Positions 43,449 through 49,463 of a stretch of 64,000 nt of DNA are shown here, in pieces. Below the pieces are notes generated by a model. The model searched no databases. It had not been told where the DNA came from and saw nothing but the letters and a program-made list of their open reading frames with translations. The translations under genes and the position numbers were made by a program. Numbering within the stretch: position 1 is the stretch's first letter; every line of letters begins with the position of its first letter. Source of the DNA: Ignavibacteria bacterium (lineage in GTDB: Bacteria; Bacteroidota; Ignavibacteria; Tepidaquicellales; Tepidaquicellaceae); the NCBI GenBank assembly GCA_028714695.1, contig JAQTLX010000013.1, positions 1-64,000 of the forward strand. Reading direction: 5' to 3'.

Positions 43449-44918
43449 ATGTTAAAGCAGACACAATCACAGAAGCAGTTACAGAAATTAATTCCGCAGA
43501 TTATACAGAAGCAGAATCTTCTTGCTATATCTACGATGGCTCTCGAACAGATGGTGAAACAGGAACTCGAGATGAATCCCTTCCTTGAAGAATCCGATGA
43601 ACTTGAAGAGGACTCGACATTAGACGAGGAGACGCCTGTTGAGACGGAGGCTGAGAAAGTTGAGTCAGAGGGAGAAGAGACAGAGAAGATAAAGAAAGAA
43701 GACGAGGAATTCGATACTGATGATTACATCGAGTCCGATTATGAAGGATACAAGGCGAGCGAAGATAATGTGACTAAGGAGCGGGTTAATTACGAAAACA
43801 TGTGGAGTTCGAAGGTAACGCTGAAAGACAACCTGCTTTCGCAACTGCATTTAACAGAACTCACCGACAAGGACATGTTCATCGGCGAAGAAATTATCTG
43901 GTCGCTTGATGACGAAGGATATTTCAGGGAAAATCCCGAAGAAATAGCGGCGGATATCGAAAAGCAGAAAACAGACACTGCATTTGAATCGGATACATTT
44001 ACCGCTGACGATGTTATAAGAGTGCTAAAAGTTATACAGACTTTTGAACCGGTTGGAATTGCCTCGCGGACACTTGCCGAATGCCTTATAGTACAACTGA
44101 AGGAAATGGAACTTGAAGCGAGCATGAAGCAAATCTGCATCGATATACTTCAGAATCATTTTGAAGAGTTCAGGTTAAAGAATTTTGAAAAATTAATAAA
44201 AGAGTACGGAATAACGATAGACATAATCAACAGGATATTTGAAATTATTTCCAAACTTAATCCAAAGCCGGGTTATCTGGTAGATTCATCAGACAGCATA
44301 TACATATATCCGGACATAATAATATACAAAGAGAACGAAGAATATAAAGTTGAACTTAACGACAGATCAGTGCCGTCTCTGAAATTGAACGAGGTGTACA
44401 GCGATTTGATGAGGACGTCGGATAAGAAGGCGAAGGATTTCATAAAGACAAATTTCGAAAGGGCGAAGTGGTTTCTTGATTCGCTGCGTTCACGCAAGGA
44501 GACACTGATGAAGGTAATGTTTGCGATACTCATCAGGCAGAAGGAATTCTTCGATTTAAAGGGAAAGAATCTCAAGCCGATGCTTGAGAAAGAGGTAGCG
44601 GAAGACATTTCAATGGATATATCCACAATAAGCAGAACTGTAAGAGGCAAGTACGTTCAAACCGATTTTGGAATTTTTGAACTCAAACACTTCTTCAGTT
44701 ATCATTTAAAGACCGACATGGGCGATGACATTTCAACGAAGGAAGTAAAGAACAGGATTGCCGAAATGATACAGGGCGAGAACAGCAATTCACCGCTTAC
44801 TGACGACGAATTAACGGCAGAACTAAACAAGTTGGGATACAAAATAGCCCGCCGCACGGTAGCCAAATACCGGGAATCAATAAGAATTCCGGTGGCAAGA
44901 TTAAGAAGAAAATTATAA
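43449..44918 (+). CDS. rpoN: RNA polymerase sigma-54 factor
   Basis: 489 residues. Region I is the Gln/Leu-rich [47 protein letters not shown]. Region II is a long acidic stretch (45-115). The core-binding part has the [34 protein letters not shown] and [12 protein letters not shown] segments; the helix-turn-helix is [29 protein letters not shown], and the RpoN box is [23 protein letters not shown] at the very end. It directs transcription from -24/-12 promoters with AAA+ activators. Unusual neighbourhood: directly upstream of hslVU. Confidence 0.96.
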
Positions 44919-46928: not shown

Positions 46929-47642
46929 ATGAAAAAATTAATAACAGCAGTAATAATTATTTTATCTTTTACACAAGTAACTTTTTCACAGTTAAAAGTC
47001 GGGAGTAAAGGTATTTATGCGGGTCTTGGGTACTCGCTTGTATTTTTCACAAACACGGATGTTACGAATGTTTATTCGTCATTTGATTTCAGGAAAAACT
47101 CCATTAAGTCGGAAATTAATCCTTTTGTAGGATATCAGCCGTCAAAGAATCTTGCGTTTGAGTTCTCACCGGGATTTTTATATTCAAATACGGGAGCGAA
47201 CGATGGATTTTATTATTCACAATCGGGATTATCTTCCGAAAATTATTTTTATTATCCGAGAAATGCGTTTCTACTGGCGATTCCGCTCAATCTGAAAGTA
47301 AAAATATTTCCGTTTGCCAAGTCGAGTTCCGGTGCGGCAAGCGGATTATTCTTCAGTGCCGCGGGTGGACCAATGATGATTCGCGAAGAGTACGACAATG
47401 ATGTTTATTCTGACAAAAACATGGCATATCCGTTGTTTTTCAAGACGGTGAGCAATACGGTATGGACAGGAAATTTTCAGGCGAGTTTCGGATATTCGTC
47501 GCAGTCTGTGCTGGCATATGGATTTGAAATCGGATACAGATTCGTTCCTCTTTCAGTAGATAGAAAATATCCATTAATTTCCTCGCTTGCAGGAAATATG
47601 AATTCAGTAATTTTATCCATAAAAATTGGTTATAGTTTTTAA
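46929..47642 (+). CDS. Small outer-membrane beta-barrel protein, function unknown
   Basis: 237 residues. A signal peptide ends TFSQ at 21. The rest consists of amphipathic strands with frequent Tyr, Phe and Gly (KGIYAGLGYSLVFF, NLAFEFSPGFLYS, ALLAIPLNLKVKIFPF, SGLFFSAAGGPMMIR, QASFGYSSQSVLAYGFEIGYRFVPL) and ends VILSIKIGYSF with the aromatic last residue that marks outer-membrane barrels, about eight to ten strands. It resembles PorT-like or OmpW-like small barrels but no clear family. Ten bases after hslU and twelve before the V4R gene, so part of the same run. Confidence 0.75.
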   Translation: MKKLITAVIIILSFTQVTFSQLKVGSKGIYAGLGYSLVFFTNTDVTNVYSSFDFRKNSIKSEINPFVGYQPSKNLAFEFSPGFLYSNTGANDGFYYSQSGLSSENYFYYPRNAFLLAIPLNLKVKIFPFAKSSSGAASGLFFSAAGGPMMIREEYDNDVYSDKNMAYPLFFKTVSNTVWTGNFQASFGYSSQSVLAYGFEIGYRFVPLSVDRKYPLISSLAGNMNSVILSIKIGYSF

Positions 47643-47654
47643 ATTGCAAAAGTG

Positions 47655-48182
47655 ATGTTCAAAGAAGAAAGAAATACTTCATTATTTCAATGGAGCGATT
47701 TAGGGGATATTAATAAGGGAAGACCCAATCTCGGATTCATGACGGATATAAGGGTGTACCGTTTAATGCAGTACACATTGAGGGATGTGCTTATAAAAAG
47801 ATACGGCGTTGACGAGACGAATAAATTAATAATAGAGGCGGGGTACAATGCAGGTGTGCATTTCTGCAGGAATTTAATTGACGTTAAATTACCGTTTAAT
47901 GAATTTATCGCCGAATTACAGAAATCATTACGTGATTTAAATGTCGGAATATTAAGACTTGAGAAAACGGATGATAGTAAGAAACATTTCTTTATATCCG
48001 TTGCCGAGGACCTTGATTGTTCCGGGTTATCTGTTTCTGACGAGACGGTGTGTAATTACGATGAAGGATTTTTTTCTGGGATTATGAATGAATATACCGG
48101 GAAGAATTATATTGTCAAGGAAATAGACTGCTGGTCGACCGGCGACAGGGTTTGCAGGTTTGAATTCAAACAAGCCGATTAA
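47655..48182 (+). CDS. V4R (4-vinyl reductase) domain ligand-binding protein
   Basis: 175 residues from ATG 47655 (a GTG directly before could also start). The layout matches the V4R fold, related to heme-NO-binding and Bet3-like domains: helices RVYRLMQYTLRDVLIKRYGVDETNKLIIEAGYNAGVHFC, strand-rich centre GILRLEKTD, and the terminal VCNYDEGFFSGIMNEYTGKNYIVKEIDCWSTGDRVCRFEF with the conserved E-x-x-C...GD-x-x-C-x-F pattern. V4R domains bind small hydrophobic molecules and often sit in XylR-like activators. Here the domain stands alone, and its stop codon abuts the ATG of a soluble histidine kinase. Confidence 0.82.
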   Translation: MFKEERNTSLFQWSDLGDINKGRPNLGFMTDIRVYRLMQYTLRDVLIKRYGVDETNKLIIEAGYNAGVHFCRNLIDVKLPFNEFIAELQKSLRDLNVGILRLEKTDDSKKHFFISVAEDLDCSGLSVSDETVCNYDEGFFSGIMNEYTGKNYIVKEIDCWSTGDRVCRFEFKQAD

Positions 48183-49355
48183 ATGGATGAGAGAAAAGTA
48201 ACACCGATTCAACTTGCGATAGGAAGATTAAGCGATTTAATGCAGGCGAAGATTCCCGAGAAGATAAATATCGCTGCAAATACGGAAGAAGAAAAAAAAC
48301 TTGTAAAGTTAATAAACGATCTCGTTGATTTTTCATACGAAACGTACAATTTCATACTGCCTTTATCGAAAGGCGATTTAAGCATAAAGACACCAAGTAC
48401 AAAGAATTTTTTTGCATCTCCGTTCAAAGAACTTCATTCAAGGCTTCAGCATCTCACATGGCAGGCAGAGCAGATTGCCAGCGGAAATTATAATCAGAGA
48501 ATCGACTTCATGGGAGATTTTTCCAAAGCGTTTAACAACATGGTAGAGGCGCTTGATAAAAACACTCGGATGCTTAAGGAAGAAATTGCGGAGAGAAAGA
48601 AGGCTGAAGAATCGCTAAAGGAATATTCGGAAAAACTGGAAGAGGCAAACCTGACGAAAGACAAATTTTTTTCAATAATATCGCATGATTTAAGAAGTCC
48701 ATTTACGGCTATTATAGGTTTTGCAAATCTGCTTTCACAGGAATATGACAGTTATGATGATTACGACAGGAAGGAAATGATAAGTAATATAGAGACATCG
48801 GCGAATTCGGCTTTTAGGCTGCTTGAAAATCTGCTCGAATGGTCGCGAAGTCAGATAAACGGAATAGAATACAAACCCGAAAACATCGAAATGAGCGTTG
48901 TTGTCGTCGAGATAATAAATATTCTGGCGCAGCAGGCGGCGGGAAAGAATATCAAACTGCTGACGGAAGTTAAATATAACACAAAAGCCTATGCCGACCC
49001 GAACATGACAAAGACGATTTTAAGGAATCTGATTTCGAATGCAATCAAGTTTACAAAAATCGGAGGTACAGTTATAATTTCATCAAAAGAAATCAAACCA
49101 TTTCTGGAAATATCGGTAAAAGATTCGGGAATCGGGATTGCGAAAGAGGATATCGAAAAAATATTTAAATTAGGTTCAACATCCGGAAAAAGAGGAACAG
49201 CAGGCGAAAAAGGAACAGGTCTTGGGCTTATGTTGTGCAAAGAATTCACTGAAAAAAACGGCGGGACTATTTCGGTTGAAAGCGAGCATGATAAAGGGAC
49301 AACTATGAAATTTACTTTGCCTCTGCACAAAAGCAGAATGCAAACAAATTTGTAA
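48183..49355 (+). CDS. Soluble sensor histidine kinase
   Basis: 390 residues with no membrane segment. N-terminal 80 residues are helical without a known sensor fold; a HAMP-like stretch QIASGNYNQRIDFMGDFSKAFNNMVEAL (98-124) and a coiled coil (125-160) lead to the H box FFSIISHDLRSPFTAIIGFANLL with His168, N box ILRNLISNAIKFT, G1 DSGIGIAKEDIEKIF and G2 GTGLGLMLCKEF. No receiver domain and no response-regulator gene adjacent. The gene begins at the base after the V4R stop, so the V4R protein is the likely signal input. Terminator follows. Confidence 0.92.
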   Translation: MDERKVTPIQLAIGRLSDLMQAKIPEKINIAANTEEEKKLVKLINDLVDFSYETYNFILPLSKGDLSIKTPSTKNFFASPFKELHSRLQHLTWQAEQIASGNYNQRIDFMGDFSKAFNNMVEALDKNTRMLKEEIAERKKAEESLKEYSEKLEEANLTKDKFFSIISHDLRSPFTAIIGFANLLSQEYDSYDDYDRKEMISNIETSANSAFRLLENLLEWSRSQINGIEYKPENIEMSVVVVEIINILAQQAAGKNIKLLTEVKYNTKAYADPNMTKTILRNLISNAIKFTKIGGTVIISSKEIKPFLEISVKDSGIGIAKEDIEKIFKLGSTSGKRGTAGEKGTGLGLMLCKEFTEKNGGTISVESEHDKGTTMKFTLPLHKSRMQTNL

Positions 49356-49431: not shown

Positions 49432-49463
49432 AAAAAGCCCGTTGCAGATGCAGCGGGCTTTTT
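49432..49463. terminator. Strong bidirectional terminator
   Basis: AAAAAGCCCG (49432-49441) pairs with CGGGCTTTTT (49453-49462), and the inner TTGC/GCAG bases extend the stem around loop AGAT. It has T-runs on both strands and separates the histidine kinase (plus strand) from the convergent acyl-CoA dehydrogenase gene. Confidence 0.93.

Follow-up and report, generated by a model that had tools for sequence, protein, structure and literature searches.

How a V4R domain that stands alone in its protein might pass on a signal, and which signal this would be, is the question raised by two adjoining genes in a 64,000-nucleotide stretch of DNA from an Ignavibacteria bacterium (hereafter, the window). 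The available part of an early paper gives the view that V4R domains pass signals to effectors either in cis or in trans (PMC2253512). The genes and the end of their run are the following:

47655..48182, + strand: stand-alone V4R protein of 175 aa (open reading frame, Pfam PF02830, AF2 model)
48183..49355, + strand: soluble histidine kinase of 390 aa, the partner and output in the window's genome (open reading frame, Pfam, hydropathy)
49432..49463, no strand: putative bidirectional terminator closing the run 3' of the kinase (14-bp hairpin, then a T run)

The V4R reading frame extends from an ATG at 47655, with an alternative GTG start at 47652, to a TAA at 48180-48182, and the kinase frame from the ATG at 48183 to 49355; stop and start thus touch, as stated in the initial annotation. 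The MFKEER start given by the ATG of the window V4R is also present in two relatives (L003 and L004), and hydropathy showed no transmembrane segment in either the V4R or the kinase. The 49432-49463 hairpin (-22.6 kcal/mol, z -6.35) precedes a convergent acyl-CoA dehydrogenase gene and is likely a bidirectional terminator; it was absent from the output of a consensus terminator scan. On the other side, a 237-aa protein (46929-47642) with a signal-like N-terminus, as judged by eye, stops 12 bases short of the V4R ATG; it had no Pfam match and its relatives were absent near other V4R pairs.

The position of rpoN upstream in the same run (43449-44918, with hslV, hslU and the gene for the 237-aa protein in between) was correctly annotated, and had been taken as a hint of a sigma-54 activator as the target of the kinase. 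This hint did not hold, because none of 64 related loci (mean 9.5 kb), one of them from the taxonomic family of the window's genome, has rpoN close to the pair, nor did any of them contain homologues of RpoN, HslV, HslU, DUF3109, the acyl-CoA dehydrogenase or the 237-aa protein. Likewise, the genome contains ten strong sigma-54 activators, none of them tied to the pair. Since the neighbours of the window pair are common to none of the 64 loci, we rejected a sigma-54 link. The response regulator is indeed missing nearby, with none on the whole 101,822-base contig of the window, and there are 46 receiver-domain matches on other contigs of this genome. In another genome of the same taxonomic family (G019, L154:3401-6002), the V4R-kinase pair lies directly after genes for a 2-oxoacid:ferredoxin oxidoreductase (POR_N, TPP enzyme and POR).

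We then located in the kinase the region that could take up an input, designated here the receiver region:

48183..48647, + strand: receiver region, kinase residues 1-155, a predicted tandem HAMP leading into a coiled coil (alignments, AF2)
48312-48581, + strand: conserved core of the receiver region (alignments)
48657..48851, + strand: HisKA dimerisation/phospho-acceptor domain (Pfam), with His168 at 48684-48686
48996..49328, + strand: HATPase_c catalytic domain (Pfam)

Pfam identified HisKA (56.8 bits) and HATPase_c (88.9 bits) in the kinase, which has phospho-His 168, an N-box at 282 and G-boxes at 314 and 344. Its HAMP match (PF00672) reaches 20.3 bits, under the cut-off of 25 that is exceeded in some relatives (36.2 in L146, 29.7 in L148 and 28.9 in L019), and the Pfam HAMP matches in receivers are typically ca. 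5 residues shorter in the protein than in the profile. The AF2 model of the receiver region (mean pLDDT 95.9) consists of helices at residues 8-20, 35-62, 76-99 and 111-154. In Foldseek, the top rows were Aer2 poly-HAMP structures, with weak E-values; single HAMP structures covered residues 44-92 (2y20, Z 5.4, rmsd 1.6 over 49 residues) and a HAMP-DHp fusion covered residues 82-155 (3zrv, Z 5.5 over 74 residues). Nearly all the top structure rows were HAMP, at Z 5-6, which is low for helical models. We read the receiver region, from these models, as a predicted tandem HAMP whose connectors are short. Structure prediction gave an all-helical arrangement instead of a ligand-binding sensor, and, because there is no ligand-binding fold in residues 1-155, no sensor belonging to the kinase itself is recognisable in that region. 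A PDB profile search with the receiver retrieved mostly designed coiled coils, which we discarded as composition matches, and Pfam gave no RsbU_N-type row for the window kinase.

Using the V4R alone as a query, we retrieved 24 relatives in genome contigs, and further loci were added later. Beside nearly all of these relatives there was a protein matching residues 1-155 of the window kinase, often without its catalytic part. In all, 42 of the 48 intact stand-alone V4R genes, comprising 41 fetched pairs plus the window, are followed on the same strand by a gene for a receiver protein. The count leaves out fragmented or frameshifted V4R genes (L025, L026, L147, L149 and L155), fusions (L133, the second V4R of L134, and L136), weak V4Rs of other types, and duplicate views (L001, L153, L154, L158, L161-L182 and the short loci L027-L128); L146 was retained even though it is truncated by a contig end. 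The six intact V4Rs without a receiver are L010, which is at a contig end, L132, L135, L139, L142 and L145. Three of the genomes of the last five loci (G469, G542 and G659) gave no receiver match anywhere, although masked runs beside a V4R fusion in the contigs of G542 make the absence unsure in this genome. The V4R-kinase arrangement thus recurs in other genomes and is not due to chance, and the V4R/receiver pair occurs across distantly related bacteria rather than being local to the window.

Two variants of this gene order deserve mention. In L025, L147 and L149, a broken V4R frame lies next to a receiver reading frame, owing either to assembly errors or to decay of the sensor. In L192, which is included among the 42 pairs, a REC-HD gene (L192:5795-6877) is placed between the V4R and a receiver-bearing GAF hybrid kinase, making it a candidate three-protein version of the module.

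We evaluated the co-occurrence of both genes in genome samples, each centred on a genome holding the pair, so that at least one pair was guaranteed in each. In the phylum sample around the genome of an Acetobacterium locus (G456; 338 genomes), twelve genomes contained a V4R at E <= 1e-12, and the eight with a strong match (E < 1e-60) were exactly the eight that contained a receiver. In the sample around the genome of a Geobacteraceae locus (G452; 198 genomes), there were 14 genomes with a strong V4R and 11 with a strong receiver (E < 1e-25), all 11 being among the 14. Fisher p values, which ignore the relatedness of the genomes, were 3e-16 for G456 and 1e-15 for G452, or 1e-13 and 2e-9, respectively, when every match was counted. 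At E <= 1e-10, the overlap in the G452 sample was 11 of 19 V4R genomes and 11 of 17 receiver genomes, the remainder being G469, G542 and G659 plus five V4R and six receiver genomes with weak matches (E 1e-11 to 1e-18). The genomes of this sample with only a weak V4R of another type (G488, G561, G589, G616 and G641) had no receiver. Orphan receivers (G506:C199, G516:C1, two in G442, one in G448, and G1206:C128) were found in genomes that hold a V4R of the window family. Both the adjacency in 42 of 48 cases and these samples indicate that the two genes are kept together.

The pair is rare as well as widespread. Among 395 genomes sampled from the phylum of the window, only three had a match, two of them strong and one weak, and the sample around a Tolumonas genome (339 genomes) contained two with a match; in a general search, V4R domains were detected in two of 59 near relatives, one being the window's own genome. 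This rare, scattered and wide distribution suggests that the pair may have spread by horizontal transfer. Carriage by plasmids or viruses was considered and rejected: a plasmid search yielded one weak match, to a sigma-54 regulator, and none of the nine viral stretches that fitted the search pattern encoded a relative.

Evolutionary distances turned out to be less informative about contact. In a mirror-tree comparison of 41 pairs, V4R and receiver distances correlated with r 0.54, against a maximum of 0.21 after shuffling. Nevertheless, for 20 pairs the correlation was 0.56 between V4R and receiver and 0.64 between V4R and GGDEF; because this control correlates as well, we rejected the mirror-tree as proof of contact. 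The distances show co-inheritance, not a specific co-evolution of V4R and receiver.

What follows the receiver region is variable. As deduced from Pfam matches, the partners in the 42 pairs carry a GGDEF domain in 23 cases (one of them GGDEF-EAL), a hybrid kinase in seven, a kinase in six, including the window, a SpoIIE phosphatase in two and a class III cyclase in one, while two are receiver-only and one is cut by a contig end. The kinase is thus, by these assignments, only one of several interchangeable outputs, an aspect missed in the initial annotation. The output label changes 14 times on the V4R tree, compared to a mean of 17.0 after shuffling, which indicates that swapping is frequent, albeit not free. 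The closest swap is between L014 and L020, with 152 of 169 V4R residues and 60 of 87 receiver residues identical and with GGDEF and SpoIIE, respectively, as outputs. No membrane segment was present in 39 of 41 partners. In the two receiver-only partners (L004:6534-7130 and L138:5606-6226), of about 200 aa, the output is replaced by a cysteine-rich CPxCM tail. Additionally, in L150:1412-2464 a receiver is fused to a class III cyclase, and the fetched 8000 of the 9693 contig bases contain no V4R; the genome of this locus, G442, has one V4R and three receivers.

Together, our results argue that the V4R and the kinase probably constitute a trans-acting input module, in which the V4R acts on the tandem-HAMP receiver of the kinase and whose outputs are swapped elsewhere. 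In this model, where we infer the physical contact, the direction of signalling, the nature of the signal and the target, the V4R would undergo a change of small-molecule, metal or redox state and would then contact the tandem-HAMP receiver at the N-terminus of a separate, soluble and dimeric kinase. This contact would shift the packing of the HAMP and coiled-coil helices and thereby switch autophosphorylation and, in the window's genome, the phosphate would pass from the kinase to an unlinked response regulator. The receiver would be generic, so that elsewhere the V4R/receiver unit would drive diguanylate cyclases, SpoIIE-type phosphatases, class III cyclases and hybrid kinases.

Alternatively, the two genes could be merely co-transcribed and travel together without direct contact of their products, with the V4R perhaps being a signal-making enzyme. 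We consider this improbable, because the V4R goes with the receiver region and not with the rest of the partner, and an enzyme would need no dedicated receiver across so many output types; the patchy distribution in the window's phylum would, however, fit a mobile gene pair, and a relationship of V4R to ATC hydrolase is described in the available part of PMC5847659.

Returning to the input module, its sensor was analysed from an alignment of 51 V4Rs of the family, with 41-63% identity to that of the window, and its features are:

47685..47735, + strand: family-specific N-terminal motif F-x-W-x3-G...GRPxLG, residues 11-27 (51-row alignment)
47991..48170, + strand: Pfam V4R stretch, residues 113-172 (profile match)
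48018-48020, + strand: invariant C122 (51/51 aligned V4R rows)
48051-48053, + strand: invariant C133 (51/51 rows; aligns with MopR C155)
48120-48122, + strand: invariant E156 (51/51 rows; aligns with MopR E178)
48129-48131, + strand: invariant C159 (51/51 rows; aligns with MopR C181)
48153-48155, + strand: invariant C167 (51/51 rows; aligns with MopR C189)

The Pfam V4R match (PF02830, residues 113-172) scores 59.4 bits, above its cut-off of 31. Residues D119, S123, G124, E137, G138 and W160 are also invariant in the 51 sequences. The N-terminal motif falls outside the Pfam stretch and is nearly as constant in the 51 rows (F11 in 49, W13 in 47, G17 in 47, G22 in 48, R23 in 50 and G27 in 49), and is a candidate lid or partner contact. 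The AF2 model (pLDDT 84.8, with the first seven residues uncertain) best matched MopR (Z 15.4, rmsd 2.8 over 143 residues), followed by PoxR, MJ1460 (Z 14.4), DmpR, TRAPP Bet3 (Z 14) and H-NOX (Z about 9); the protein is thus predicted to have the V4R/TRAPP/H-NOX fold, as in the phenol sensors.

The window V4R also keeps the Cys/Glu/Cys/Cys metal-site residues of these sensors, with MopR numbers counted along the pairwise alignment, the metal itself being putative. The metal site of DmpR consists of Cys151, Glu172, Cys177 and Cys185, according to the available part of PMC7264223; the Glu named there is five residues before the Cys, whereas in the window E156 is three before C159. C122 and its DxDCSG context have no MopR counterpart in the alignment.

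These residues bear on the nature of the signal. One version of the input module, to which we assign somewhat less than an even chance, is that the V4R works like MsvR, as a thiol/metal redox or Fe-S switch, with the module reporting the oxidant or redox state in anaerobes. The best NCBIfam match of the V4R is MsvR (E 2.2e-16, residues 31-170), with 60.3 bits against an equivalog threshold of 220, and C133, C159 and C167 are spaced by 26 and 8 residues, as are C206, C232 and C240 of MsvR, which were tested for redox-dependent DNA binding (PMC3729527, available part); the fourth cysteine, C122, is just as invariant. Against this version, the cysteines equivalent to C133, C159 and C167 bind zinc in DmpR (PMC7264223, available part). 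The named sources of the V4R relatives first retrieved include Desulfocapsa, Geobacteraceae, Acetobacterium, Clostridiales and Bacteroides, all of them anaerobes, which is an apparent skew.

A second version, in which the ligand of the V4R is small and either hydrophobic or aromatic, was the one put forward in the initial annotation, and we deem it unlikely. The predicted fold is shared with the phenol sensors MopR, PoxR and DmpR, and F84, present in 48 of the 51 rows, aligns with MopR F99, equivalent by a six-residue offset to the pocket Phe93 of DmpR (PMC7264223, available part). However, of the MopR residues H106 and W134, whose DmpR equivalents H100 and W128 position phenol according to the same source, the first aligns with K90 of the window, a variable position in the 51 rows, and the second with a gap. 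In the alignment, then, the window V4R lacks the phenol-positioning His and Trp, making a hydrophobic ligand possible but not indicated; phenol sensing as such was rejected, since the pocket residues give it no support. Moreover, relatives of the same fold bind other things, as H-NOX, which binds haem. The window V4R did not match PF07700 (HNOB) at E values up to 0.5, and no His is found among the invariant or nearly invariant columns, so no haem-binding His was apparent. Of the initial annotation, the two-protein input module is thus supported, whereas its hydrophobic ligand stays a mere possibility: the His/Trp pair is lost, the cysteine metal site is kept, and the signal is no less likely to be a metal or redox state, so that it may be one of these and not a hydrophobic compound.

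V4Rs of the window family are not always separate proteins. In three genomes they are the C-terminal domain of SBP_bac_3-TM-PAS-PAS-PAS-V4R proteins lacking an enzymatic output, with all the invariant cysteines retained, and in L134 the gene for such a protein is directly 3' of a pair of V4R and receiver-SpoIIE. Comparably, the available part of a 2025 survey describes 20 proteins with an N-terminal PYP fused to V4R, apparently without a relay domain (PMC12826048). Both architectures fit a V4R that talks to a separate receiver protein. They would also fit a V4R that is a relay or docking adaptor, passing the signals of other proteins or of upstream domains to the di-HAMP receiver; this is possible, albeit rather unlikely, given that V4Rs are mostly stand-alone (48, compared to three full-length fusions, in the fetched set) and that the invariant metal-site residues suggest a chemistry of their own. 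More tentatively, and with less than an even chance of being right, the trans-acting input module could be generalized to a plug-and-socket system, in which sensors devoid of output (stand-alone V4R, SBP-PAS-V4R and possibly PYP-V4R) would control, over a dedicated protein-protein link, separate soluble enzymes with a common di-HAMP socket, with one input fanning out to several of them and the outputs being exchanged in evolution while the input is kept.

V4R domains, soluble HAMP kinases and trans-acting sensors are already known, and several systems resemble the proposed module. H-NOX, of the same fold superfamily, is a stand-alone cytosolic sensor, encoded next to a kinase or c-di-GMP enzyme and controlling it in trans (PMC6759604 and PMC8738867, available parts), but the V4R has metal-site cysteines instead of the Pfam haem-NO-binding match and invariant His, its partner carries a dedicated tandem-HAMP receiver, and more output types are seen with it. 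By way of a coiled-coil linker that they have in common, PP2C phosphatases, GGDEF enzymes and kinases exchange their N-terminal regulators, and RsbT, a separate protein, acts in trans on such an N-terminal receiver, as in RsbU (PMC12143880, available part); the window pair shows no RsbU-type Pfam match and has V4R and HAMP folds instead. RsbT/coiled-coil exchange and H-NOX acting in trans are the nearest published principles. XylR, DmpR and MopR share the V4R fold and the metal-site residues, but theirs is fused to an AAA+ sigma-54 activator, while that of the window is a 175-aa single domain that lacks the phenol-positioning residues. Likewise, MsvR from methanogens, with the closest profile and the equally spaced cysteines, has a DNA-binding domain, and the window V4R stands alone. 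Aer2, the best Foldseek hit of the receiver, has soluble concatenated HAMPs and is a chemoreceptor that carries a PAS sensor in the same protein, unlike the window module, whose sensor is a separate protein. In the literature covered, which is mostly outside subscription journals, we found no description of a conserved V4R/di-HAMP unit with exchangeable outputs.

If correct, the model would explain signalling by many V4R proteins without an output domain, and would assign a role to the receiver region, seen by Pfam only as a weak HAMP. It would also provide a testable answer to why PYP-V4R and other such sensors carry a V4R at their output end, as well as a natural exchange series, in which one input is joined to kinase, cyclase or phosphatase and which would be of use in examining the switching of such dissimilar enzymes by HAMP coiled coils. 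Natural V4R-kinase fusions, a further check foreseen in the initial annotation, were not found with the V4R family of the window. The nearest thing among the loci found is L193:4071-5495, where a divergent V4R, which also matches DUF2507, is fused straight to SpoIIE without a di-HAMP receiver.
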